64,000 nucleotides of DNA. Origin: Corynespora cassiicola (taxonomy: Eukaryota; Ascomycota; Dothideomycetes; Pleosporales; Corynesporascaceae). Made by a program: the position numbers and the translations under genes. A model generated the notes under the pieces. That model had not been told where the DNA came from, did not search any database, and was given only the letters and a program-made list of their open reading frames with translations. The number at the start of each line of letters is the position of its first letter. Position 1 is the first letter of the stretch. The stretch is from the NCBI GenBank assembly GCA_022059125.1, contig JAEUWY010000012.1, positions 496,001 through 560,000 of the forward strand, given 5' to 3'. Shown here in pieces: positions 5,744 to 63,729 of this stretch.

Positions 5744-6095
5744 CGAAACGATAGCTTGTTTATCACAGCTTCTGAATACTTTTGTATGTGATGGATTGTC
5801 AAGGGGGGATTTTGTAATGCATGAAATTAGTCACTGAAGTGCCGTTGTGTAAAGACATGTGAGGATCGTATTTTGTTCCTTGGATACACTGCTCTGTTAT
5901 ATGACCCCTCCATGTTTTTGCTCCAAAGTAAAAGCATGTATTCGTGACGATAACTAAGTTTAGTCCATAGTAGATCGAGTTACGCAGGAAACTCAGGCAG
6001 CGACACGTAGACGTCATAAATCGAGCAAATAAAACTTCAAAGAATGTAGTTTGGATTCTAACTAGAGACAGCCAATCGATGTAAGAGTCAGCCTA
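5744..6095. other. Convergent intergenic region, SDR/NmrA
   Basis: 352 bp between two convergent stop codons. It should hold the 3' ends of both transcripts. I see no gene or repeat in it. Confidence 0.6.
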
Positions 6096-34327: not shown

Positions 34328-36668
34328 ATGGCAACTCACTACCATACACTGGATATGAATGAAGATTCAGATAGAGAAAGCCCCAGGATTTGCGCTTCTG
34401 ACATCGACGTACCCTTGAACGCAACCAATGGAGTAAGACTACAATCGAGGTCCAGGAAATGAAATAGTTAACATAGAACTGAATAGGTCATGCGCAGGCT
34501 CGGCTACCTGCCGTGCTTACTGTTAATTTCCAGCGCCTTAGGCAGCCTTGCATTTGTTGCCTGTATTAGCTTCCTGTGGTTCGCTAATGACGATAATATT
34601 CTTTGGAAGAATATCGCGATCGCAGGCTGGACAGCTAGGTCAATCGCTGTTGCTGCTGTAGTGCTTAGAACATCGATTACAGTCCAGGCAGGTATTGCTT
34701 CTTCGATGCTAGCCAGCATTTTACTTGAAGATGCCGGAATCGATATGCCAAAACTTGCTGTGCTCTCTATCATGAGAGCGGCTGCCCCAGCGCCATACAC
34801 ATTGTTCCGGCATACATGGCCCGCCATCTACACCAAGAACTGGATATTCTCAAGTCTTGCTGCTGCATTGACGATCACCAGTGTGTTCTTGCAGTTCACA
34901 TCTACAGTCTTACTCGCGGATCTTGATACTGGTTATGTCACAGGGTAAGCTTGACAACGTTTCCTTCATCGGGATCTTAACGAAACTGAACACCCAAGAA
35001 AGGCCATTCTGATACATCTTTCAGGAATCTTGCGTCCTATCCCGTCACGATTCGAAAAGCCCCCAAAGTAGGAAGCCCGAAATGGAACGTTGGTGTACGG
35101 GAATATTCTGCTTTTGCTGAGTATTCTGAAGGTATGGCTGCAGATGGGTCATCCGGCCTGTCCGATACCGGACTCACTATGCGAGCTTTTTTACCGATAA
35201 GTAGACAAGAAAATCGGACCTCTATACAAAAATATGAGGGTTTTTCACAGGTATTCGATACGCGCGTGGTCTGTGTACGGCCAAATATCACAAACCTTGA
35301 AGTGTATCTCAACTCCTCCCTTCCGGTGTTGCACGGAAACATGTCCATACCATCAGATTTGAGGGAGATCGCTGCGGCTTCTCGTTTACATGGAAACGAA
35401 ATGGATGAATTCAACTGCCAAGTCTCGATTGGCGCTGTGTCCGAATCTCAAAAGTACATGTATCATCAATCAGACTGGAAAATGACGGTGTGTCAATTTT
35501 ACGGCGGCGCTGGTCACCTTCAAGAGGCCTTTCGGGAAGTTGATCCTCCGGAAGGTAACGTGGTCAGGAGCATTTTACAAAAGTCATATCTTCTTGTAAA
35601 CTTCACAGGTGATCTATCGTCACACGAAACCCCTATTACGGAATTTACAAGCGATCCGCAGGTGAATCATGCCTACCTCGGACGTCTGTTCAACGACTCT
35701 ATACCTGGCCTGATTCGACGAAATAGAGCTGATTGGGTAGATCTATATCGAACGAATGGTAACTACACACCAGCCGAGATTAGAACGAAATTGAGCTTCA
35801 GCCTTTGTTTCTCGTTTTTTATGGCAAGACCATTCAACATTTCCGCTTCATCTTCGGTTCCACTCGTAGAACCAAGATATAGTTACGACTCTGATAGTGG
35901 ACGTGTGAATTTCGACGACGTTCGAAAGCAGATGTTGACTTCATCAGGGTCTTTGGAAGATCGGGGCGTTCTTTCGTTAGAACCTCAGAAATGGTCCGCC
36001 TACTGGGGTGGATATTACTCATACTTTCATGAGACGGATGTCGCTTCATTGCTTTCGATGGAAGATGCCGGTGGCGCACGAACAATTCATTTGATAGATG
36101 GAATGACTCCTTCATTTGCGAGAGCAGATATCAGCATAGGGGGTCTGCTTCTCGACATTCTTCGCTCTAACGGTACTACTGCAGAGGCAATGCAGAGTAT
36201 GCTGATGGTCGCGCTGGAGTCGCGCTACCAGGACTATTTCTTTTTCGTGGGTAGAACTGCGACAATGGACGGAAGTAACTTCTCAAGTCAACGAGCCGAC
36301 TTTGTTTCTGTGCAGATTCCGGGAGGCCAAGGCCGTACTGCCAATCATGCAGCAGGAGCCACACAATCCTACGTACTTATCATGAGTGCTGTATTTATAC
36401 ATAGTGTTATAGTATGCAGTATAACGGCATGGTATCTAAAGGGTATGTTATCACAAAACATTTCTAGGTCACCACTGACGCGATTACAGCAGCAACTGCC
36501 ACTCTTCTTTGGGAGTCATGGTCCAACATAGCTCAAATTATCAACTCAGACACTGTAGGCTATCTAGAGAAAGCATCAGCTGCAAAAGACTCTGAAGTAA
36601 AAGCATGGATGCAAAGCGAGAATTTGCATCTAACTTCTATCAAAGTCAAAGCATCTCCCAAATTGTGA
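34328..36668 (+). CDS. Large fungal membrane glycoprotein of unknown function
   Basis: Four exons (34328-34432, 34487-34944, 35025-36442, 36490-36668) give about 719 aa. N-terminal hydrophobic segments are LPCLLLISSALGSLAFVACISFLWF, IAVAAVVL and IFSSLAAALTITSVFLQF. A long ectodomain of about 440 residues with many NxS/T sites follows, then a C-terminal helix (SYVLIMSAVFIHSVIVCSI) and a cytosolic tail. It belongs in style to the lineage-expanded fungal membrane proteins with three N-terminal helices and one C-terminal helix, whose function is unknown. Each splice junction restores frame. A fragment of transposon-end sequence starts 20 bp after the stop codon. Confidence 0.78.
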
Positions 36669-36687
36669 TTCGAGAAGAAAACACGCT

Positions 36688-36705
36688 GTAACGTAAAGGA
36701 GAAGC
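36688..36705 (+). repeat. Solo transposon-end fragment
   Basis: GTAACGTAAAGGAGAAGC closely matches the outer end of the transposon terminal repeat that starts 138 bp further on (TATAACGTAAAGGACAAGC), in the same orientation. The adjacent iterated units are missing. Confidence 0.5.
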
Positions 36706-36826
36706 TAGTTGCGCACCTTTCTAACAAGCTTGTACTAAGAAAATGCTTTTCTATACATATAACATAATAATAGTAGTAATATAGCATTCTACGCCCTGCA
36801 ACCAAATCCATAAAGAAACCAAAGTA

Positions 36827-36917
36827 TAACGTAAAGGACAAGCGAGCGGGTCAGACAAGCGAGCGGGTCAGACAAGCGAGCGGGTCAGCCCCCCTGACTG
36901 CCCCAACGCGCACCACC
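36827..36917 (+). repeat. Left terminal inverted repeat with three 17-bp units
   Basis: After the outer end come three direct copies of a 17-bp unit (GACAAGCGAGCGGGTCA), then a 28-bp stretch ending ...GCGCACCACC. The right end is its reverse complement but with two copies of the unit. It remains GC-rich, unlike the interior. Confidence 0.88.
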
Positions 36918-38634
36918 TCCACCCATAATGCCACCACAAAATAATCCTCAATCAGTCTCTAGCGAAGCCCTTATTATTCTTGCCCTCTTAGCTATTTAAA
37001 ATAATTTAATTAAGAGCGTGCGACGCGCTGCTAATATCTATAAAATTCTATTTAGTATTTTTTAGGCTTAACGTGTTAGACAACCTGCGCGATATAATTA
37101 CCAGTCTAACTTAAAACAGCTGACTAAGCTTAAAAAAAAATAATTATTACTTATATTCTTAAGCTAGACTTATAAAAATTCGTACTTATACTAAATACTA
37201 TATAAAATATAGCTAATTAGTTATTTACTACGCAAGAGGCGAGCTATATTAGTATTAAGTAGCCTAATAACTTTATTAAGCGTTAGCTAGAGTTTTAAGT
37301 TTAATTAACCTGCTAGCAGAATTACTAGTAAATTTTATATAAAAATTTTAAAGTTATTAACTTTTAGTTTAAATTGCTGTATTATATAAAAAAAAAGTAT
37401 AGTATTATTAATAAAAACACGTATAATTTTAACAAGATAAACTTTATAATAAGCGTAATATTAGCTTAATTAGTAGTTATAGTATTAAAAAAACAGAATT
37501 AATCTAAAAGCACTTAGCTAAATAATTAAAAGTAAATTATAATAATTTAGAAAATTAACGCGTACAGCTAAGTAATTTTTTTTTTATTATTTTTACAAGT
37601 AAATACTACTTCTAAATATAGTATAAAAGTAATAATATTTTATTTAGCTAGTATATATTATTTAGCAAAACAGGCTGGACGATAAATAAGCTAAAAATAT
37701 ATTAGTTAAAATATTTTAATATTTATACGCAGAGCTGTACAGTAGAAATATACTAACTATTTATTATTAATAGCTATAAAAGCTATAACTTTTTAGCTTT
37801 TTAGAACTTCTGTAAAAAAAGTAAAATTATTACTTTTTATATATTTCTGTATTTATTATATTTTTTTTAGCTACTTAATATAAAGTACTTTTCGCTCTTA
37901 AAGCGGGCGTATAGTAATAAAATCTCTAGCTTAGCACGCGATTATATTAACTATATTAATAAAATTACTTTTCTGCCAGCTTTTAAAAAAGCTTTTTAAT
38001 AATTATTTACTAAAAAAAATATACGCGCGAGCTTTTAAAAAATAAAAATAATTTTATATAATTTATAAATTATACTATTAAAGCTTAACGTAAAGCTATG
38101 TACGTTTACGCTAGCTATTTCTAAAACTACTTTATAAAAAGCTAGAATACTAAGTAACGCGTATAAGCTAGAGGCTTAGTTAATATTAATTTATAATAAA
38201 ATTAGAAAAAATAAAAGCTTATTACTAGTCTTAATTATTAAAGCTTTTGTTTAATTTAATAAAAGTGCTGTAATACTAACTTATAAAGTTATATTACTTT
38301 ATACGCGGGTTAAAAATTTTAAAAAAGCTAATAAAGCTGCTACGTAGTGTATAAAGTAAAAAATAAAGCAGATTTAGTATAAAAAAACTTTAAAAAAAGC
38401 TAAAAGAGCTAAAATTATTACTTAAAAAAATATTAAGAAGTAATTAAATAAGAAGAGGCGTAAAAAAATAGCTTATTTTAGTAGCAGCCAGCAGTTAAAA
38501 ACGCGCTGCACGCGATACAGAGAGCAAAAACATAACTCTCGTACGTGTAAAACAACATTATAAACACTGTAGTTACTTTCTGTATCAATTTATTATTGTG
38601 TTTTTCTAAGGTGGTTGAGTAGATGGTGGTGCGC

Positions 38635-38698
38635 GTTGGGGCAGTCAGGGGGGCTGACCCGCTCGCTTGTCTGACCCGCTCGCTTGTCCTTTACGTTA
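38635..38698 (-). repeat. Right terminal inverted repeat with two 17-bp units
   Basis: Reverse complement of the left end with one 17-bp unit fewer. Apart from that unit count the shared ends look identical over about 64 bp. Confidence 0.88.
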
Positions 38699-38770
38699 TA
38701 CGATTCAAACTTGCGAATATTTACAACTGAAACCAAAAGGCCTGAACTTCACGGTTTGTCCCGTCATTCC

Positions 38771-40096
38771 TCAGTAATCCGCTGGGACCAGCGAGTTCGC
38801 CCATGCCTCAACGTTCACATACCCATCCCCATCCTTATCTTCCATAGCATCATCCTTCGCCGCATCGAATCCCAAATTCGCCTCAGCCTCATCCGGAATA
38901 CCATCACCATCCGCGTCCACCGCCTTGGTACCCCCAGCAATCGTTCCCGGCCCATTCATTGGACTCGCGTTCTCATCGCTGATCAGCTGCCCACCCTTGC
39001 CCCAGGACGTTAACTCCTCAACCAACTTCTTGTCAACGCTGTCCCGGACCTTGCTCGCGCCAGCCTTGTTCTGGACATGCTTGAGCGCATCCGCCGCGCT
39101 GAGCACCTTCCCAGGCGCCGGGTGCGGCCACTTGGCCTCCACAATCTGCATGCCCCCATAGTTCGAGCTACTAGCCCCCAACTCCTTCCCATTCAACGCC
39201 CCATCCTTGTCACTATCATAGAAATTGCCCTCCACATAGCCCTTAAAGTTCGCATTCCCACGCGTGAACGCCGTCACGCTAGTACTCGGCCCCGAAACAA
39301 AGTAATTGCCCACAATGTTGGCCTCGCTCTGGCCCGAGCTGTCGCCGGCGATGTACCCGCCGCCGCCGCCCCAGTTGTAGACGACGTTGTTGGTGAAGTC
39401 GTTTGAGCCCTTGACCTTTGGGTTGCGCGTCTTGTTGTCGATGTACAGGTTGCGGAACAGCGAGATGCCGTTTCCGACGTCTGTTTGCATGAGGCCGCCG
39501 CACGAGTGGGTCTCCAGGCCCTGGCCGATGATGCTGTTTTGGATGGTGATGTTGGATACCTCGGAGCCGGAGATGGAGAAGGTTTCGTCGCGGCCCCAGG
39601 TCACGCTTAGGTGGTCGAAGATCATGTCTACGCCGTGCGGGTTAGTTTGATGGGATGTGGGGGGGAGAGGAGGAGGCATACTCGAGCCTTCGGCAATGGT
39701 GATAGCGTCCTTGCCAGAGGTTCCGCCTTTGCCCATGCGGATGCGGATGTAGCGCACGATGGTGTCGTCGGCGTTGGAAAACGACCATCCGTTTCCGTAC
39801 ACCGTGATGCCGTCTCCCGGAGCCGTCTGGCCTAGGATGCTGATGCGCTTGGACACGACCATGCGCTCCTCGATCTTGATCAGTCCGCCCACGGCGAACA
39901 CGACGATGCGGTCCGTCTTGGACACGGCATCGCGGAGGGATCCCTCGCCCGAGTCGTTGAGGTTGGTCACCACGTACACGCTTCCCTGGCGGCCGCCGAT
40001 GGCATTTGCGCCGTAGCCTTCTGCGCCGGGGAAGGCGAGCAGGCCGGCTGCTGAGTGGAGGAGGGAGGCGAGGGAGAGGACCGCAAAGGTACGCAT
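38771..40096 (-). CDS. Secreted pectate lyase (PL1-like) with C-terminal calcium-binding repeats
   Basis: Exons 40096-39682 and 39627-38771 give 423 aa. ATG 40096 is chosen because the signal peptide (RTFAVLSLASLLHSAAG) begins there; an upstream in-frame ATG at 40141 gives an unlikely leader. The parallel beta-helix enzyme shows GSLRDAVS, IVVFAVGGLIKI, a SILGQTAPGDGITVYG block, and the FDHLSVTWGRDETFS region typical of fungal pectate lyases. It cleaves polygalacturonate by beta-elimination using calcium. The tail holds two DxDxDG loops (DADGDGIPDE and DKDGDGYVNVE), which look like EF-hand or thrombospondin-3 style calcium sites. Confidence 0.9.
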   Translation of the reverse strand: MRTFAVLSLASLLHSAAGLLAFPGAEGYGANAIGGRQGSVYVVTNLNDSGEGSLRDAVSKTDRIVVFAVGGLIKIEERMVVSKRISILGQTAPGDGITVYGNGWSFSNADDTIVRYIRIRMGKGGTSGKDAITIAEGSSMPPPLPPTSHQTNPHGVDMIFDHLSVTWGRDETFSISGSEVSNITIQNSIIGQGLETHSCGGLMQTDVGNGISLFRNLYIDNKTRNPKVKGSNDFTNNVVYNWGGGGGYIAGDSSGQSEANIVGNYFVSGPSTSVTAFTRGNANFKGYVEGNFYDSDKDGALNGKELGASSSNYGGMQIVEAKWPHPAPGKVLSAADALKHVQNKAGASKVRDSVDKKLVEELTSWGKGGQLISDENASPMNGPGTIAGGTKAVDADGDGIPDEAEANLGFDAAKDDAMEDKDGDGYVNVEAWANSLVPADY

Positions 40097-44650: not shown

Positions 44651-45380
44651 TACCTGCTTAGGTTGTATCAAACGTCAGATATTTTGTTCATTTGCCCTTC
44701 TCGTAGCCTCTTATCCTGATTTGTCTCAAGATCTATTATTCTAAAAAAGGATCAATCAATAGTCCTTCAAAACTTCAATTAGCTGTAAGACCCTACGCGA
44801 GGTCACCTTTGAAATCCCCGTCGGCATCAAATTTTTCATTTCCGTGTCACATGCGAAGGATGTCCAAGCATGTCAAGAACTGTCACAAAGCTATTGTGAA
44901 CTTGTCGAACAAAAGAATTGTGGTTTCAACATGGCCACAAAGGCCTATGTTAACGTTCATATGTACGTACTGTATTCTCATTGACTAGCTGTGTACCAAT
45001 AATAGCTACCGGGTTAACAGCTACACTGCAACGCCTTGCATTACAATTCTTGATTTGTGAAGACATGAATCGAAAGAAGTTTTTCTTCCGGCTTGAACAT
45101 TTCCCCCTTACTATCACTCAATCTAGATGCTCATGTATACGACAACTTTGAAACCGTTACAAATCAAGCTTAACCACACAAACGAACAGGACCTTTTTAT
45201 GGTCGGGTTTTACATTGTGTGGTGATATATCGACACTGTGGTGGGATATTTATGCCCTCACAGATAATTGATAGGATTGTAGGGAATTTGGCGACATATA
45301 TATTCTATTCCACTTTTAATTCAATATGTTTATGCAGGACTACGGAAGACCTTGAAACCTGCAACTCCAATAGGAAAGTG
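44651..45380. promoter_or_regulatory. Upstream region of the zincin gene
   Basis: 730 bp. A TATA-like atatatattc lies at about 45296, some 85 bp before the chosen start. No gene supported. Confidence 0.4.
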
Positions 45381-47063
45381 ATGGACACAATTGTTGAAAG
45401 TTGGAGCTGGCAGCCAAGGGCTCGAAGTACTTCTTTCAGCCGGACTGCCAAAGAATCGCCTGAGCAAGGGCGACACAGACATTCGCAGCTCAGATGTGAT
45501 GATGCGAGATTGTGGAGCAAGCTAATTTGGCGTGATTACATGCTTGAGAACGTCAAAACTCAGCATGTGCCAGGTGGCAAGCGTCCATTTCGTAGCGTCC
45601 CTAGCCCACATCTCGGTAACCTTGAGAATGGTATCCACAGTATCTTGAGAAGAGAGAACTGGATACTGGGTGGCGGGCTGGTCTATCACGATGATATGAT
45701 CTTCGAGCGCATGCAACCCGCACTGCGATTGGCGACCAAATTTCTCACAGTCCCTTCGATATTGCGACTGTGGCTGCGGATACTTCCTTCACATTCGGGT
45801 GAAAGAAGGAAGCACCCGAATGTTGAGAATTGGTATCTTCCTGAGCCTGAACTGGGCTGGGCTACGGAAGATGCTGCCCTCAAGGTTTTGGCAGCGGAGA
45901 TGGAGAAATTGGCCGCAGAGATCAAATTCTCCTTTGCTGCCATAGACACCGACCAGTACCAGACCACAATACATGGTAGTCACCTGTTTCCGGGGCAGTA
46001 CATCCAAAAGGTTATGTTCAAAGGTGATACCTCGCTGATTGCAGATGCTGAAGGGTTCCATCGCATCCTTCTCAACGTCGCTTATGCTGACTATTTGAGC
46101 CAGGACGAAACATCGGAAAATCGCACCGAGGAGTGCGATCTTCGTACCCAGTTTTACTTGGCGGTAACACTTGCCCACGAGATTTCGCACGCCTTTTGCG
46201 CTAGATACTGGCTTCCTCCGGGAGACGAGATTTACGTCGAACCATACTACAACTTGGAACAGGGTGAACCAGAGATAGGTTCTGGAATTCAAGACACTCT
46301 GTTCGGGATGAAGTTTGATGCCTGCGTCCACCCTAAGCGAGGCGTCAGTATAGAAGCGGCGCGGAGGTTGCACGCATGGGTGGGTAAGAAATCCATATGG
46401 ACGTACCCGCGCATTGTATACCCAATTGACACACTATGGCTCCACAAATTCTTCACCAAGGAATTTTGGGATGCCGTCTCTTGGGCCAGGAACAATGCCC
46501 TGGACGAGTTCAAGATTCCAACCAGTGTGAAGCAATGGGTGGCCTGGGATACCGAAACGAAGGCGCGCAAGCCCAAGAACAGAAGAAGAGAAGGCAAAAA
46601 AGATGCCTTGAAGAAAAATTGGGCTTGGTATGCTGCGGAAGATTTGGACGAGGTCAACCGTGTGGGTTATTGGCAAGAGAGAGAATGCCAAGATCTCGTT
46701 GAGAAGATTGTCGCTGAAAGGCGCCATGTCCCAGTCCAAGTCTTGACTTCATGGTTGGATAAGAAAAGCATCGACACGAAAACGAAGGAAAGAGGTAAAC
46801 TGATCTTTTCTGTCAAGTTTGCGGATGGGAAACAGGAGTGGATTGAGTGCTACGACACTCTGGATTTTAACCACTTGCTTGAAGACTATTTCGTCAGGAA
46901 ACCAAAGGCGGATGGTCTCGAGTGGTTTAAATCTGTACTCAATCCACCACTTAGTGGAGCTACAGCGGCAAATCGTAAGCGTCCATTATCCGATGGGGCC
47001 TACCAAAATGATGACTATTCGGATAGAAGTTGTCCAAATAAACGAGCAAAGTCGGAACCTTGA
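45381..47063 (+). CDS. Zincin-like protein of unknown function (HEISH)
   Basis: 560 aa, single exon from ATG 45381, which has a good context (G at -3 and +4); an alternative ATG is at 45252. The central sequence TLAHEISHAFCARYW contains the HEXXH zinc-protease signature, followed by an acidic region (PGDEIYVEPYYNLEQGEPEIGSG), so a SprT-like or related metallopeptidase fold is possible. The third zinc ligand is not obvious. The basic KPKNRRREGKKDALKKNW stretch and C-terminal PNKRAKSEP suggest nuclear localisation. I do not recognise a named family. It is convergent with the nucleotide kinase, so it may or may not belong to the viperin neighbourhood functionally. Confidence 0.7.
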   Translation: MDTIVESWSWQPRARSTSFSRTAKESPEQGRHRHSQLRCDDARLWSKLIWRDYMLENVKTQHVPGGKRPFRSVPSPHLGNLENGIHSILRRENWILGGGLVYHDDMIFERMQPALRLATKFLTVPSILRLWLRILPSHSGERRKHPNVENWYLPEPELGWATEDAALKVLAAEMEKLAAEIKFSFAAIDTDQYQTTIHGSHLFPGQYIQKVMFKGDTSLIADAEGFHRILLNVAYADYLSQDETSENRTEECDLRTQFYLAVTLAHEISHAFCARYWLPPGDEIYVEPYYNLEQGEPEIGSGIQDTLFGMKFDACVHPKRGVSIEAARRLHAWVGKKSIWTYPRIVYPIDTLWLHKFFTKEFWDAVSWARNNALDEFKIPTSVKQWVAWDTETKARKPKNRRREGKKDALKKNWAWYAAEDLDEVNRVGYWQERECQDLVEKIVAERRHVPVQVLTSWLDKKSIDTKTKERGKLIFSVKFADGKQEWIECYDTLDFNHLLEDYFVRKPKADGLEWFKSVLNPPLSGATAANRKRPLSDGAYQNDDYSDRSCPNKRAKSEP

Positions 47064-47524: not shown

Positions 47525-48325
47525 TCACATCTCTGAATCCCATTTCGCTCCCAGATTCTCCCATATCTTGCTCCCTTCGAGCCGTTCCGTCAATTCAGCG
47601 ATGTTTCCCTGCTTCGTTCCATTTGCATCAACCTGCGCTTGTAAGTATCCAAGTGTTTCCCTAGGGAGTTTTAGAACTTACACGTAACAAAATGCCGCGC
47701 TGCTCATATGCTTCCTCTACTACTAAAGTCTCACGTCGATACTCTGCAAAACGCCTTTCAAACTTTTCTCTACTATCATTGTCATCTCGACCTCTACCCA
47801 AATATCTTGCTCTCGCATTTTCTTCCGAGACTTCAAATAGAAGCACCATGTCGAGTCTTGTACTTGTCCTCGGTTGACCGTCATTGCCCAGGGCAGGTGG
47901 TAGCTTGTCTTGGGCCACCCATGTATCGAAACTTTCCAATTGCTCCACGCATCGAGGAAATCCATCAACGATGACTCCCTTGCATTTCCCTTTGCATTTG
48001 CTGATAGCTTCGGAGATTGCTCCACAGATGAATGGATATAGTTCCTTGGAGGTTAGGAAACCTTGGTTGTCCAGTCGGTCTTGGATTTGAGCTGCAAGGT
48101 CCGTTCCGCGGTTCTCCCGCATCCAGCTACGCAAGCTATCACCCACAGAGTAGTGCAGCATATCATGTTTTTGGGCAAGGTGCACAGAAAGGGTTCCTTT
48201 GCCGGCGCCCGGCGCTCCTGAAAGCAAATCAGAACAGACCCAACTACTTGAGATGAAGGGAAAGTACCAAGCACAAAAATTATTGCGAAGCCACTGCGGC
48301 ACTTGCTGGGGGTGACTACAGCCAT
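47525..48325 (-). CDS. UMP/CMP-kinase-like nucleoside monophosphate kinase paired with viperin
   Basis: Three exons (48325-48268, 48217-47682, 47632-47525) give 233 aa. The P-loop GAPGAGKGT (residues 20-28) appears only after the first intron is removed. The NMP site is HYSVGDSLR, DGFPR lies at 104-108, DMVLLFEVS is the core strand, and RGRDDNDSREKFERRF is a short lid with the R-x-DD pattern of UMP/CMP kinases rather than the long lid of classic adenylate kinases. It would phosphorylate CMP or UMP (or a modified form) with ATP. Ascomycetes already have an essential UMP kinase, so this is probably an extra copy. It is divergent from the viperin gene with 483 bp between start codons, fitting supply of CDP/CTP to viperin. 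Confidence 0.9.
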
Positions 48326-48808
48326 GAAACTAGTGGCTCTTTAGTGAAGATGAATTAAGAATTTATTGTTTCCGTTTGCTGAAGGTTTCACAGGGGCGAG
48401 GCGGGGCTGGGCTGGGGTCCATAAGAAGGAGGCAATCTGTGCCAGCGTCGCGGAGAGCATTGGCCACGCGAACAGGCTGGAAGCGGGCGGGGGCGGCGCG
48501 GTTGCCATCCTGCACGTGAGTGCAGGGTTCCCATGAGGGGTTCTTGCCCAGCAACCCATAGTTAGTCCCCCACAGCTTTCTCATGCCTGATTGTTACTAC
48601 AACCAAACACCAAAATCCATTGGTTCTTCAGCACTACCACACTCAATACATTGCATGGTCCTGTATTCACGCTCCACGTCAGAAATACCGGAATACAGTG
48701 ACCGCCAATCCAACAGGCTGCTACACGATCCCCGGCGGCGTAGTTAGCCGACTGCTCCACTTGTTCAATACGCACCTGAGAAACGATACAGTGTTTGATT
48801 TGACCAAG
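48326..48808. promoter_or_regulatory. Bidirectional kinase/viperin promoter
   Basis: 483 bp shared by the two divergent start codons, with a G-rich plus-strand stretch near 48390-48420. The viperin frame is open upstream to about 48620 but without an ATG, so this is not coding. Co-expression is inferred from the layout; I recognise no specific operator. Confidence 0.6.
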
Positions 48809-49837
48809 ATGTCAATGTTTACAGCCCCCTTGATCGGTGTGCTTTGCATATTTGTTTGCATTCTGATCAAACACCGCTTCATTCGAAGCCCGGTGAACGG
48901 ACCTGCCAAAGATCCATTGAACGCAACGAACGACCCAGTCTCTGTAAACTACTTTCCTTCGCGGAAATGTAACTACAATTGCGGTTTCTGTTTCCATACT
49001 GAGACTTCCTCCTTCGTCCTTGATATCAAAGAAGTCAAGCGTGGCCTGCGATTACTCAAGGAGGCGGGAATGCGTAAACTTAATATCGCTGGCGGAGAAC
49101 CGTTCCTATACCCTAAACTCCTCCATGAGATGCTGAAATTTTGCAAGGTCGAGCTAGGTGTAGAAAGCATCAGCATCGTGAGCAATGGCAGCAAGATCCA
49201 GGAGAAGTGGATGAAAGAGAACTGCCAGTGGTTGGACATCCTAGCCATTTCTTGCGACTCATTTAATCCAGAGACAAATATACGGATTGGGCGCGGCGAT
49301 GATGGACAAAACGTAAACCGACTTTTCAAGATCGCGGAATGGTGTCGGAACTATGGCGTCAAATTCAAGCTGAACACGGTCGTGAATACACACAATTGGA
49401 ACGAGGATATGGCCAAAAATATCAAGAAGCTCGACCCATTCCGCTGGAAGGTTTTCCAATGTCTCATTGTGGCTGGTGAGAACGATAGCGAAGAGAGGAA
49501 GCGGGACGCGAGACACTTCCTCGTAACCGACGAGCAATGGAAGCACTTCTGTGACCGACACAAGCACCTCAAATGCTACGTACCAGAGGACAACTCATCA
49601 ATGGCGAGTAGCTATCTACTCTTGGACGAATACATGTGCTTTCTGGACAAAGGTGAAGGAATGATGACAAAGAGCGAGTCGATCCTGGACGTCGGTGTTA
49701 GAAAAGCGATGAATCAAGTTGTTTGGGACAAGAAATCTTTCATCGACCGAGGAGGTATCTACGATTGGGGCAAGTCGGACAAGGCTCAGCCCGAAAAGTG
49801 CGGCGGGTTAGGCAATATGAAAGAGCTACAGTGGTGA
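48809..49837 (+). CDS. RSAD2-like: Viperin-like radical SAM enzyme (ddhNTP synthase)
   Basis: 342 aa, single exon; ATG 48809 is the first in frame and has A at -3. Residues 3-20 form a hydrophobic helix (FTAPLIGVLCIFVCILI), a likely ER or lipid-droplet anchor like the vertebrate N-terminal helix. The radical SAM cluster site CNYNCGFC has Cys54, 58 and 61. Then GGEPFL (95-100), VSIVSNGSKI, DILAISCDSF, RIGRG, FRWKVFQCL with GEN, YLLLDEYMCFL and KSILDVGV, all viperin hallmarks, and the conserved end RGGIYDWGK, with a fungal tail finishing in Trp. Known reaction: CTP (or another NTP) to the 3'-deoxy-3',4'-didehydro chain terminator that stalls viral polymerases. NTP preference cannot be read here. 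Divergent partner of the kinase. Confidence 0.95.
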   Translation: MSMFTAPLIGVLCIFVCILIKHRFIRSPVNGPAKDPLNATNDPVSVNYFPSRKCNYNCGFCFHTETSSFVLDIKEVKRGLRLLKEAGMRKLNIAGGEPFLYPKLLHEMLKFCKVELGVESISIVSNGSKIQEKWMKENCQWLDILAISCDSFNPETNIRIGRGDDGQNVNRLFKIAEWCRNYGVKFKLNTVVNTHNWNEDMAKNIKKLDPFRWKVFQCLIVAGENDSEERKRDARHFLVTDEQWKHFCDRHKHLKCYVPEDNSSMASSYLLLDEYMCFLDKGEGMMTKSESILDVGVRKAMNQVVWDKKSFIDRGGIYDWGKSDKAQPEKCGGLGNMKELQW

Positions 49838-60228: not shown

Positions 60229-62468
60229 TCAACGCACCTGAACCGCATTCGACAGCGAATATGACTTTGCGCCTCCCCCTAAACTCACCCAGAGTGTCAA
60301 CGGGTCTTTTCCAAGCTTTTCTTTTGTTGCGCTGGCGGCGCTAACGACGTTTCCCGGCACTGTTACGGGGAAACTGGTTTCACATTGCGTATTCTTGGCG
60401 TTGACTACGACTCCGGTAATGGATCTGCGATCATCCGAAAGCTGGTAAATCAAGTTCGGGAGACATTCATCACGCGTTTTTCGGGCGATGACAGCTCTGG
60501 CAATGTCGTCGTGCTTGAGAGTGATCACGGGCCACTGGGTGCTACAGAAGGAGTTAGCTTGCGCCGCAGTAATATATCGAGAAGGAAGAGGTCGCCTCAC
60601 AGCCTAGTAAATTCATAGATCACGGCCTCGGTCCACGCCATGAGTAAGCTCCACTTCTTTCTTTTTCCTAGCAGTGTAATCTGCGGCGTGTCGCTTATCC
60701 TCATGTTCGCCTGGTGGAACATGTACGGATCCCACCTCAAGCCGAGAAGGTACTTTGTGTTCACACTTCTTTCGTATTCTAGCTGGGCATTGAAGTCACC
60801 TTGTCCATTCGCGATCGCCTTCCATTCCGTGTTGTCGCATTCAGGGAGGTCACAGTTATAGTAGATGGTGGTTCCGAATCGGCCAATAATGTACGCGCCC
60901 TCGTATCCGTTCTCCTTTACGTTGGTAATGATGGGATGGAAATCTGACTTCCGACTGGCTACATTCATCAAGACTGGGCGCGCGTTATCGCCAACTGTAT
61001 ATTGGATCCCGTTTTCTAACCAAGCTCGGATCGCATCTCCGTTATGCAATCCGGTAATCCCTGGGGGAATGAGTCCGTTCGGTGAGAAGTAGGGCGCTGA
61101 TGAAGCATCCGTAAATCCGATTCGTTTGAACCTAGAGCCCATCAGCCCGCGCGTTTTGTGCATCGAGTAAGCGACATACCACTCCTGATTCCATGTGATC
61201 TCCTTGACCACATCAGCATATGTCGCGTTTGTTTCATCCTCATGCGTGAATGTGTGGGAAACATGAAAATAGGCATTCATGTTCTTCTTGTCCGAAAAGT
61301 AGACCTTTAAGGGATCTAGATCTGAACATTTCAGAGCCCAAGTATACCTTTTGAATTTCTTATCCCATAAATCCTTCCCGGTTCCAATTGGTTTCATATA
61401 TTCGGGAGGTCCATCAATCTGGTCTGGATAGTATATCCCTTCTTGTGGGTCGCAAAGCGCAGGCTCATTGTCATAATCATGTTCTACTGCTTCTTCGATA
61501 TTTCCATTTCCATTGTGTCCAAGCTCAATCATGTATGATGAGCCAGCAGGAAGCTTAGAGTTGACCTCCTTCATCCATGCAATGTGTTCCCTGAAGTCAT
61601 CTGGTTTAATGCGATAAGATACACCAGTTTGATAGAGCTCAGTCATGACAAACACGTCATCTACCTGGGTGTTCAGATAGGTCCTTCGAAACCCCAAGTA
61701 TATTCCGTGCGTTATCCAATGAATCCATGCATGTGATAGGAGGGTAGATGACGTGAGGTCTGGACTGAATGTGGAAAACCACACCTGTTGTTCGCGTCCC
61801 GTGGGAAACTTGTTGATGACAGCAGCGGTCGACTTGGAGCCTGTACCACCAAATTGGGCTATCTCTGTAGCCAATTCAGAGTCTGTAATCTTCGCTGGGT
61901 ATTTTGCGAGATTCACGGTGCCCATTTGGGCGTTTCTGAAACGTACATTAGCTCTAGGAACGTTTCTCCGACCAATATGGAAGGCTCACACCACGATGTT
62001 TGCTGTTGCGAACTCACTTGAGTCTGTTATGGCAACCGGTTGATCAGCAGTGACTGTATTTCCCAAACTTTGAACACCAAAATCCGCATTCGGCCAAGAA
62101 TTCAGCCTTACGAGCCTGATACCAAAGAATTCCTGATAGCTGTATATTTCTTCCCATTGCTTCTTGTTGACTGCTGTGGCCCAGTCGTCGCCGCCATTGT
62201 ATCCCCGGGAGCTCACCGTGACGATGCCGCCAAAATTTCCAAAGTCGGGAGTAGAATTCAGTCGTGGAATTGTGGCCCCCGGAGCCGATAAATCGATGGT
62301 CAGGTACGGGATACCATAGCCCTGCAGTACCGCAGTCGCGGAGATGGTTGCGTTTGCATCGCGGGCAAGAATTAGCAAAGTGCTATTGACAGTGACTGCT
62401 GCGTCGGAGAGTCCCGTCAGCATGAATACCACAACCAAAAAGTAGAAAAAGCTTCCCAGAGATGCCAT
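60229..62468 (-). CDS. Agd3-like secreted polysaccharide deacetylase (CE18 type)
   Basis: Exons 62468-61990, 61935-60601 and 60541-60229 give about 708 aa. ATG 62468 opens a signal peptide (FFYFLVVVFMLTGLSDAAV); an upstream in-frame ATG at 62549 is possible. The N-terminal beta-rich part (LLILARDANATISATAVLQGYGIPY) resembles the carbohydrate-binding half of Aspergillus Agd3. The catalytic half has the metal Asp pair in LNTQVDDVFV and a histidine pair in HVSHTFTHEDETN, with GFTDASSAPYFSPNGLIPPGI and FVIYEFTRL-like regions. Agd3 deacetylates galactosaminogalactan in the biofilm matrix. Partner genes of that pathway are not in the window. A short extra 3' exon is possible after the donor-like gtgcgt at the end. 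Confidence 0.88.
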
Positions 62469-63729
62469 GGAGGTCAGAATTTCACAATCAAAAGTTGGCG
62501 GAAGGAAGTAGGCCTTCGAGATGGGATATACTTTGAAGTTAGGTGCCACATAAGAACCCCAAATAATGGTGGTATTGTATCGTATGATCGCATCTAATGT
62601 GAGGATGCTATATCCATACGAGCCGCATGGATTGAAGCACGCCGCGTCGGGTCAAGATCATCAAGTCTGCATGGATTTATCCAAGAGACGAAGACCATAA
62701 GTGAAAGAAGTATCGGAATTATAATAGCTCTACTGTTAGCATCTTGTGGCGTGATGAAAAATGCTGGGAGTTACAGCAACCTCAAACCTCATGGATGACC
62801 TGTTCGCCGGCTCCCACAAGTTGAGTTTTTGTGGACCAGGGAATGAAAGCTGAATCGCTTGGTTTTCTCCTGGGCTTTACTCTAGTTCGTTATTAGAGAA
62901 CCTCTTCCCCGAATTGTCATTTGCAGATGAAGTGTAATATGGGTGATCGGATAATATCTAGATCCCGGTGTCGGTAAGCTTCAGTGGCAAAAATAGCCTA
63001 GAACATCGGCGATGAAATTTGCACGCACGGCGCGAAAATGTCGTCCAAGTAGCTTCGGCCTGATTCGAGTGATGAAAGCCCGAATATAGCGTAAGGCTTG
63101 ACTGACGGTCCACCGAGATGATCTGTTGGCCAGGAATATGCACCACCTTCGTCCACAACAGTAGTTTAGAAAGAATATAGTCTTTGTGCTGCAATAGCAA
63201 AGTACTTTGTTGCAGGGCTTGTTTTAGATATACCCGTGGTGGAAAGACTTGATGAAGAGACGCGTATACGAACTGTGCGGAACGCGTACGGATAACTTAA
63301 GACAGATCTAATTGCAGAGCGATCAAGATGAAATAAGGCATGCTGATGCCGTCAACGATTAATCATAAAATTGTTCGGGTAGCAGATGGATACAGTCGAT
63401 GGGATGGAAAGGGAGACTGGCGCGAACTTGACGCGCGGGCGAAAGTCTTTGCTTGTTACGCTAAACCATATCAGGAAGTCCTGTCACATCGAGGGACCTT
63501 AACGCGTCGGCCCCAAAACCTGCGACTCCTCAACACAAACTGGAATATCTACTCAACAAACGATCGACCATTTCTGGTGCTGCCATGGGGCTTACACTTT
63601 CGTGGCTATCCCTACCAAGCATTACTAATCAATGCTCCCGATGCCTTCGAAGGGCTCCACACAGCCTCCTTGACTATGCATTGCTATGAGAATGCATCGG
63701 AAAGTTGCCAAGTGCTTGAACCGTTTTCA
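62469..63729. other. Gene-free spacer
   Basis: 1.26 kb. It includes the deacetylase promoter. A plus-strand frame at 63340-63753 overlaps the next gene's end and has no recognisable domain. Confidence 0.45.

Follow-up and report, generated by a model that had tools for sequence, protein, structure and literature searches.

The window analyzed here is a 64,000-nucleotide stretch of the genome of the fungus Corynespora cassiicola (contig 12, positions 496001–560000; 44.35 Mb in 23 contigs), in which the genes for a viperin and for a nucleotide kinase of the adenylate-kinase superfamily are transcribed divergently, viperin on the forward strand and kinase on the reverse strand, from start codons that flank 483 bp. 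The only other viperin gene found in this genome, on contig 6, likewise has a gene of the adenylate-kinase superfamily divergently upstream, which is broken by an in-frame stop. With this single genome as the fungal evidence base, the best reading of the data is that the genome carries two viperin–kinase modules of old separation, the one in the window intact in both frames and the one on contig 6 with a broken kinase. We put at roughly 0.6 the probability that this is a fungal two-gene module whose kinase supplies or recycles nucleotides or their 3′-deoxy-3′,4′-didehydro (ddh) forms. The literature searched, with most subscription papers outside its scope, yielded no description of a fungal viperin–kinase pair.

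In such a module the viperin would make ddh-nucleotides, probably ddhCTP and/or ddhUTP, while the divergent kinase would either keep CTP/UTP supplied or re-phosphorylate ddh-nucleoside monophosphates. With both genes starting from the same gap, one promoter region could turn on the two together, and the 483-bp stretch is presumably a shared bidirectional promoter. We infer that the two genes may be co-regulated, that the kinase may act on substrates of this kind, and that the pair may act against mycoviruses.

The viperin gene of the window and its divergent kinase

The viperin of the window has a hydrophobic N-terminus, a radical S-adenosylmethionine (SAM) core with the motif CxxxCxxC (RKCNYNCGFCFHT), the GGEPFL motif, and a conserved C-terminus that ends in tryptophan (..KELQW). 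With 253.4 bits it passed the cut-off of model NF038283 (180 bits). Its best model by E-value was TIGR04278, a model of the kind "exception," which it matched with 389.6 bits, yet under the cut-off of 450. The nearest solved structures were 9dfn (365.9 bits), 9dfu (362.7 bits), and 6b4c (358.2 bits), the last of which is given in a table row of PMC8124187 as the viperin of Trichoderma virens. In two trees, one with 14 and the other with 13 prokaryotic viperins and neither with animal sequences, the window viperin, the contig 6 viperin (viperin 2), the T. virens viperin, and 9dfn were separated from the prokaryotic ones by a branch supported at 100/100. Given this grouping, a recent transfer of the gene from bacteria was not supported. 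According to a passage in PMC10732462, most eukaryotic viperins form one clade, which is probably as old as the last eukaryotic common ancestor. The prokaryotic models of PADLOC gave the window viperin 236.7 bits with the model for viperins not associated with a kinase, 216.9 bits with that for associated ones, and 193.1 bits with that for fusions. The radical SAM core starts with NYF in the window viperin and 9dfn, and with NYH in the T. virens viperin, viperin 2, and 9dfu; this residue may bear on the choice of substrate.

The kinase gene extends from an ATG at position 48325 to a stop ending at position 47525, and its predicted spliced frame is open for all 233 aa. The protein matched PF00406 with 77.3 bits (gathering cut-off 26.8), while PF02223, the family of CMPK2 and thymidylate kinase, gave no match at an E-value of 1e-3. 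It contains the P-loop GAPGAGKGT, the DGFPR motif, and a short lid, and so resembles URA6, eukaryotic UMP/CMP kinase, and AK1 in the motifs of short-lid nucleoside monophosphate (NMP) kinases. Unlike these enzymes, to which it is 26%–32% identical, it has ∼18 additional residues inserted after DGFPR and before the lid, and a valine in the SxGD motif. The variable residue of this motif helps choose the base; it is A in four UMP/CMP kinases, T or S in four adenylate kinases, V in the window kinase, and I in a kinase encoded on contig 1. The valine would fit a pyrimidine substrate, of which it is no proof. BLASTP identities to nine reference kinases were between 22% and 32%, with human AK1 and 3umf at the top (both 32%), and yeast URA6 at 27%. 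These features mark the window kinase as an NMP kinase with an intact frame and a diverged sequence. It forms a long branch within the adenylate-kinase superfamily and is not assigned to the UMP/CMP kinases. Scans of viral contigs and genome contigs, sensitive to close relatives, returned no relative of it, so that a bacterial or viral origin found no support there, a distant origin being beyond the reach of such scans.

The search of the genome with PF00406 gave nine matches in five genes (11 candidates scored), the window kinase among them. The gene on contig 23 is URA6, with a TIGR01359 score of 240.7 bits, above the cut-off of 207.6. Contig 1 encodes a second short-lid NMP kinase (2563457–2563975, reverse strand), which at 152.2 bits stayed below this cut-off, and the kinases on contigs 20 and 8 are ADK1- and ADK2-like, as judged from their motifs. 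One PF02223 gene, presumably the ordinary thymidylate kinase, was found on contig 4 (three exon matches), and no second one turned up in the genome search. If six genes of the adenylate-kinase superfamily are assumed in 44.35 Mb, the expected number of them that start, on the opposite strand, in the 500 bp upstream of any one gene is, as a crude figure, 3.4e-5. An earlier reading made from the letters alone (the sequence-only reading) had described the complete viperin, an intact short-lid NMP kinase, and the gap between them, and it was right about the coordinates and anatomy of the viperin, the open kinase frame, and the 483 bp. The possibility, named there as a refutation, that the kinase is the sole URA6 of the genome is rejected, because URA6 is a gene of its own on contig 23, with a score above the family cut-off.

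The second viperin locus

Viperin 2 is 55% identical to the window viperin, and 408 bp separate it from the divergent kinase gene upstream (kinase 2), so that the pair recurs within the same genome, at the one further viperin locus that was found. Kinase 2 was missed by the PF00406 search and was found through the open frames beside viperin 2; its first piece matched only AAA_17 in Pfam, and weakly. For these reasons other decayed relatives may have escaped the search. When the second piece of kinase 2 was used as the query, it returned itself and one match at an E-value of 3.65. Splicing does not remove the stop, because no GT..AG stretch of 40–150 nt spans it. Repeat-induced mutation was also rejected for this locus, as none of the four genes had dinucleotide ratios that crossed the usual thresholds for such mutation.

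The T. virens viperin is 57% identical to the window viperin and 55% identical to viperin 2, and the corresponding values for 9dfn are 57% and 52%. The alignment score of viperin 2 was 840 with the window viperin versus 789 and 807 with T. virens and 9dfn, for which the shorter PDB sequences were used. The approximately unbiased test (p-AU 0.197 and 0.196) neither showed nor rejected that the two viperins are sisters. The pairing looks old, because the two viperins are about as distant from each other as from the T. virens viperin. Hence, on sequence distances, the adjacency would date back roughly to the time when the two viperins diverged, unless the pairs arose separately. No clear further gene was common to the two loci in the stretches compared.

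Table 1. Coordinates of the viperin and kinase features (window positions, unless contig 6 is given)
Feature	Position	Strand	Basis or remark
Viperin gene, intronless, 342 aa	48809..49837	+	single open frame, family scores, tree
Intergenic stretch, ATG to ATG, 483 bp	48326..48808		both start codons
Adenylate-kinase-superfamily nucleotide kinase gene, three exons, 233 aa	47525..48325	−	reading frames, PF00406
Kinase intron 1, 50 nt, GT..AG, inside P-loop codons	48218..48267	−	inferred from reading frames
Kinase intron 2, 49 nt, GTAAGT..AG	47633..47681	−	inferred from reading frames
Viperin 2	4951–6045 of contig 6 stretch 1392500–1402400	+	one inferred intron, 5770–5820
Kinase 2, pieces	4542–3751 of contig 6 stretch 1392500–1402400	−	open frames beside viperin 2

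In the window, the viperin–kinase block sits between two AT-rich stretches. One of them, at 36001–39000, has a GC content of 0.34, a TpA/ApT ratio of 1.37, and a (CpA+TpG)/(ApC+GpT) ratio of 0.86; these ratios resemble those of repeat-induced point mutation, and the block is perhaps a mutated mobile element. The other, milder one (GC 0.41) is located at 54–57.5 kb. A 629-aa frame (45174–47063, forward strand) without a Pfam match faces the kinase gene tail to tail; it contains a HEISH (HExxH) motif and perhaps encodes a metallopeptidase. A putative cyclase fragment (PF04199; 43681–44262) and a 2-oxoglutarate (2OG)-Fe(II) oxygenase (PF13532; 53096–54181) are encoded near the pair, both on the forward strand. 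The window also encodes a Zn2Cys6 domain, and an Agd3-type deacetylase with a CBM87 domain, split over two frames (60597–62651, reverse strand); this gene content and the short introns agree with a filamentous fungus.

A module or neutral neighbors

Several observations weigh against the interpretation as a functional module. The window kinase scored under the cut-offs of all 22 NCBIfam models that it matched, among them NF001381, the best adenylate kinase model (96.6 bits vs. 187), and TIGR01359 of the UMP/CMP family (80.7 bits vs. 207.6), and in these scores far under the family cut-offs it is unlike URA6, UMP/CMP kinase, and AK1. Because it is under the UMP/CMP and every matched adenylate kinase cut-off, its putative substrate is not fixed by family. 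The label "UMP/CMP-kinase-like" given by the sequence-only reading did not hold against the TIGR01359 score, nor against the kinase tree, which put the window kinase outside the five UMP/CMP rows (95/96), a placement that its long branch makes unsure; the UMP/CMP clade was no longer resolved once kinase 2 joined the tree.

The other adverse points come from contig 6. Kinase 2 has, besides its in-frame stop, an altered P-loop and an unusual letter make-up, and the GGEP of the other three aligned viperins is replaced by GREP in viperin 2. The second module may thus be in decay, and the state of this pair speaks against its still being maintained. The relationship between the two kinases is also loose. 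The first piece of kinase 2 scored higher with URA6 (88 and 81) than with the window kinase (76), and its whole row, with an X at the stop, scored 125 with the URA6 of its own genome versus 111 with the window kinase. Their grouping in the kinase tree was unstarred, both rows being long branches, and when the open frames of the two loci were compared, the kinase match was weak (second piece, E-value 0.004) and little better than an unrelated 37-aa match at 0.006. The two intergenic stretches share eight 8-mers, versus a shuffle mean of 5.6 (standard deviation 3.2), which is no excess of shared promoter words. Furthermore, the contig 6 pair is a recurrence within one genome and not an independent one, and a single chance adjacency could be the ancestor of both pairs.

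These points lead to the main rival, in which a viperin and a diverged kinase became neighbors by chance and were duplicated once as a short block, without joint function. The two loci, which are not independent if they come from one duplication, do not differ in kind from what such a duplicated adjacency would produce, and both the broken kinase 2 and the promoter words shared at no more than chance level speak for it. On the other hand, adjacency and orientation were kept while the viperins fell to 55% identity, with no clear further gene in common, such an adjacency has a crude chance of about 3e-5, and viperin–kinase pairing recurs in bacteria and vertebrates. Hence, we consider neutral neighbors rather unlikely, although this is the alternative that best survives.

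It is less probable still that the pair makes a secreted or intracellular ddh-nucleoside with an antimicrobial or signaling role, rather than a cell-autonomous antiviral compound. The cyclase fragment and the oxygenase frame within ∼5 kb of the pair could belong to such a natural product pathway, but no exporter was seen near the pair, the only major facilitator superfamily (MFS) frame being ∼33 kb from the kinase (20 of the 56 frames of at least 150 aa were scanned with Pfam, which covers spliced genes in part).

Comparison with known viperin loci

Viperin has been kept in fungi, which are not known to have interferon. The presence of a kinase at both viperin loci found in one genome would, as far as sequence can tell, suggest that fungi have a functioning pathway for antiviral nucleotides. 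It makes testable whether a fungal viperin needs its own kinase and whether the pair restricts mycoviruses. The passages on the characterized fungal viperins, those of T. virens (6B4C) and Thielavia terrestris (SAND), do not mention a neighboring kinase; the former protein is 57% identical to the window viperin and shares its branch at 100/100.

The prokaryotic comparison used the best 80 of 303 confirmed viperin loci, with flanks of up to 4 kb, some of them clipped at contig ends. Thirty P-loop frames of 140–420 aa were located ≤3 kb from a viperin, and from these a nucleotide-kinase-like gene within ∼100 bp of viperin was chosen by eye at 15 of the 80 loci, in all 15 cases in the direction of the viperin. 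A passage in PMC11249213 states that 15% of bacterial viperin genes adjoin a CMPK2-like kinase. Pfam was run on 18 proteins, which were those of the 15 loci, L070 (1.1 kb off, on the other strand), L031 (2.7 kb off), and a plasmid kinase (L024). They matched dNK (14), thymidylate kinase (11), cytidylate kinase (7), and cytidylate kinase-like 2 (6), as well as general P-loop models such as AAA_18 (15), AAA_33 (13), and AAA_17 (12), counts that overlap because a single protein may match several models; two matched ADK weakly (best E-value 3.4e-4). No frame with both adenylate-kinase motifs was found at any of the 80 loci by a test that caught 10 of 10 adenylate/UMP kinases used as controls, and which a decayed kinase such as kinase 2 would escape. 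Eight plasmid loci were viewed, out of 20 matching plasmid records of which the weaker ones are not viperins; at three of these loci the nearest annotated upstream gene encodes a kinase, and all three kinases match PF02223 and dNK. Among IMG/VR contigs classed as viral, 19 loci with long matches (L119–L137, of 39 returned) contain viperin-like genes of 29%–36% identity, which may be prophage or misfiled host DNA, and no viperin neighbor of the adenylate-kinase type was seen in them.

These families make it very improbable that the window kinase, though a nucleotide kinase like the other partners, is a diverged descendant of the animal or prokaryotic partner kinase, since it matches PF00406 and not PF02223, whereas the plasmid partners match PF02223 and dNK, the 18 prokaryotic neighbors are mainly dNK, thymidylate, or cytidylate kinases, and the two-motif test was negative at all 80 loci. 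A CMPK2-like identity of the window kinase is rejected for the same reason. The sequence-only reading had offered a retained ancient pairing as one origin and convergence or transfer as the other; the former is not supported by these data, while separate recruitment is favored, because the fungal kinase belongs to a family other than that of the prokaryotic partner kinases examined. This suggests an old fungal module that recruited a kinase other than that of animals and bacteria, and would be a further, separate recruitment beyond the thymidylate/deoxynucleoside- and cytidylate-kinase types found near prokaryotic viperins. More tentatively, and with the balance against the full set of claims, the module could be an antiviral one that predates the split of the paralogs, its kinase recruited independently of CMPK2 and now dedicated to pyrimidine or ddh-nucleotides, in which case the NYF and NYH paralogs may make different ddh-nucleotides.

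The fungal pair resembles the prokaryotic loci in that a nucleotide-kinase-like gene adjoins viperin, and differs from them in the kinase family and in its divergent rather than codirectional layout. Passages in the respective sources describe RSAD2 (viperin) and CMPK2 as direct neighbors that are cotranscribed (PMC12889620), place CMPK2 next to viperin in the genome and state that in humans it helps in the synthesis of ddhCTP (PMC8801973), and attribute to CMPK2 a probable independent origin in bacteria (PMC11249213). The C. cassiicola pair is like this vertebrate arrangement in that viperin adjoins the gene of an NMP kinase. It differs in the kinase itself, which in vertebrates is the thymidylate-kinase-like CMPK2, and in the fungus a member of the adenylate-kinase superfamily.
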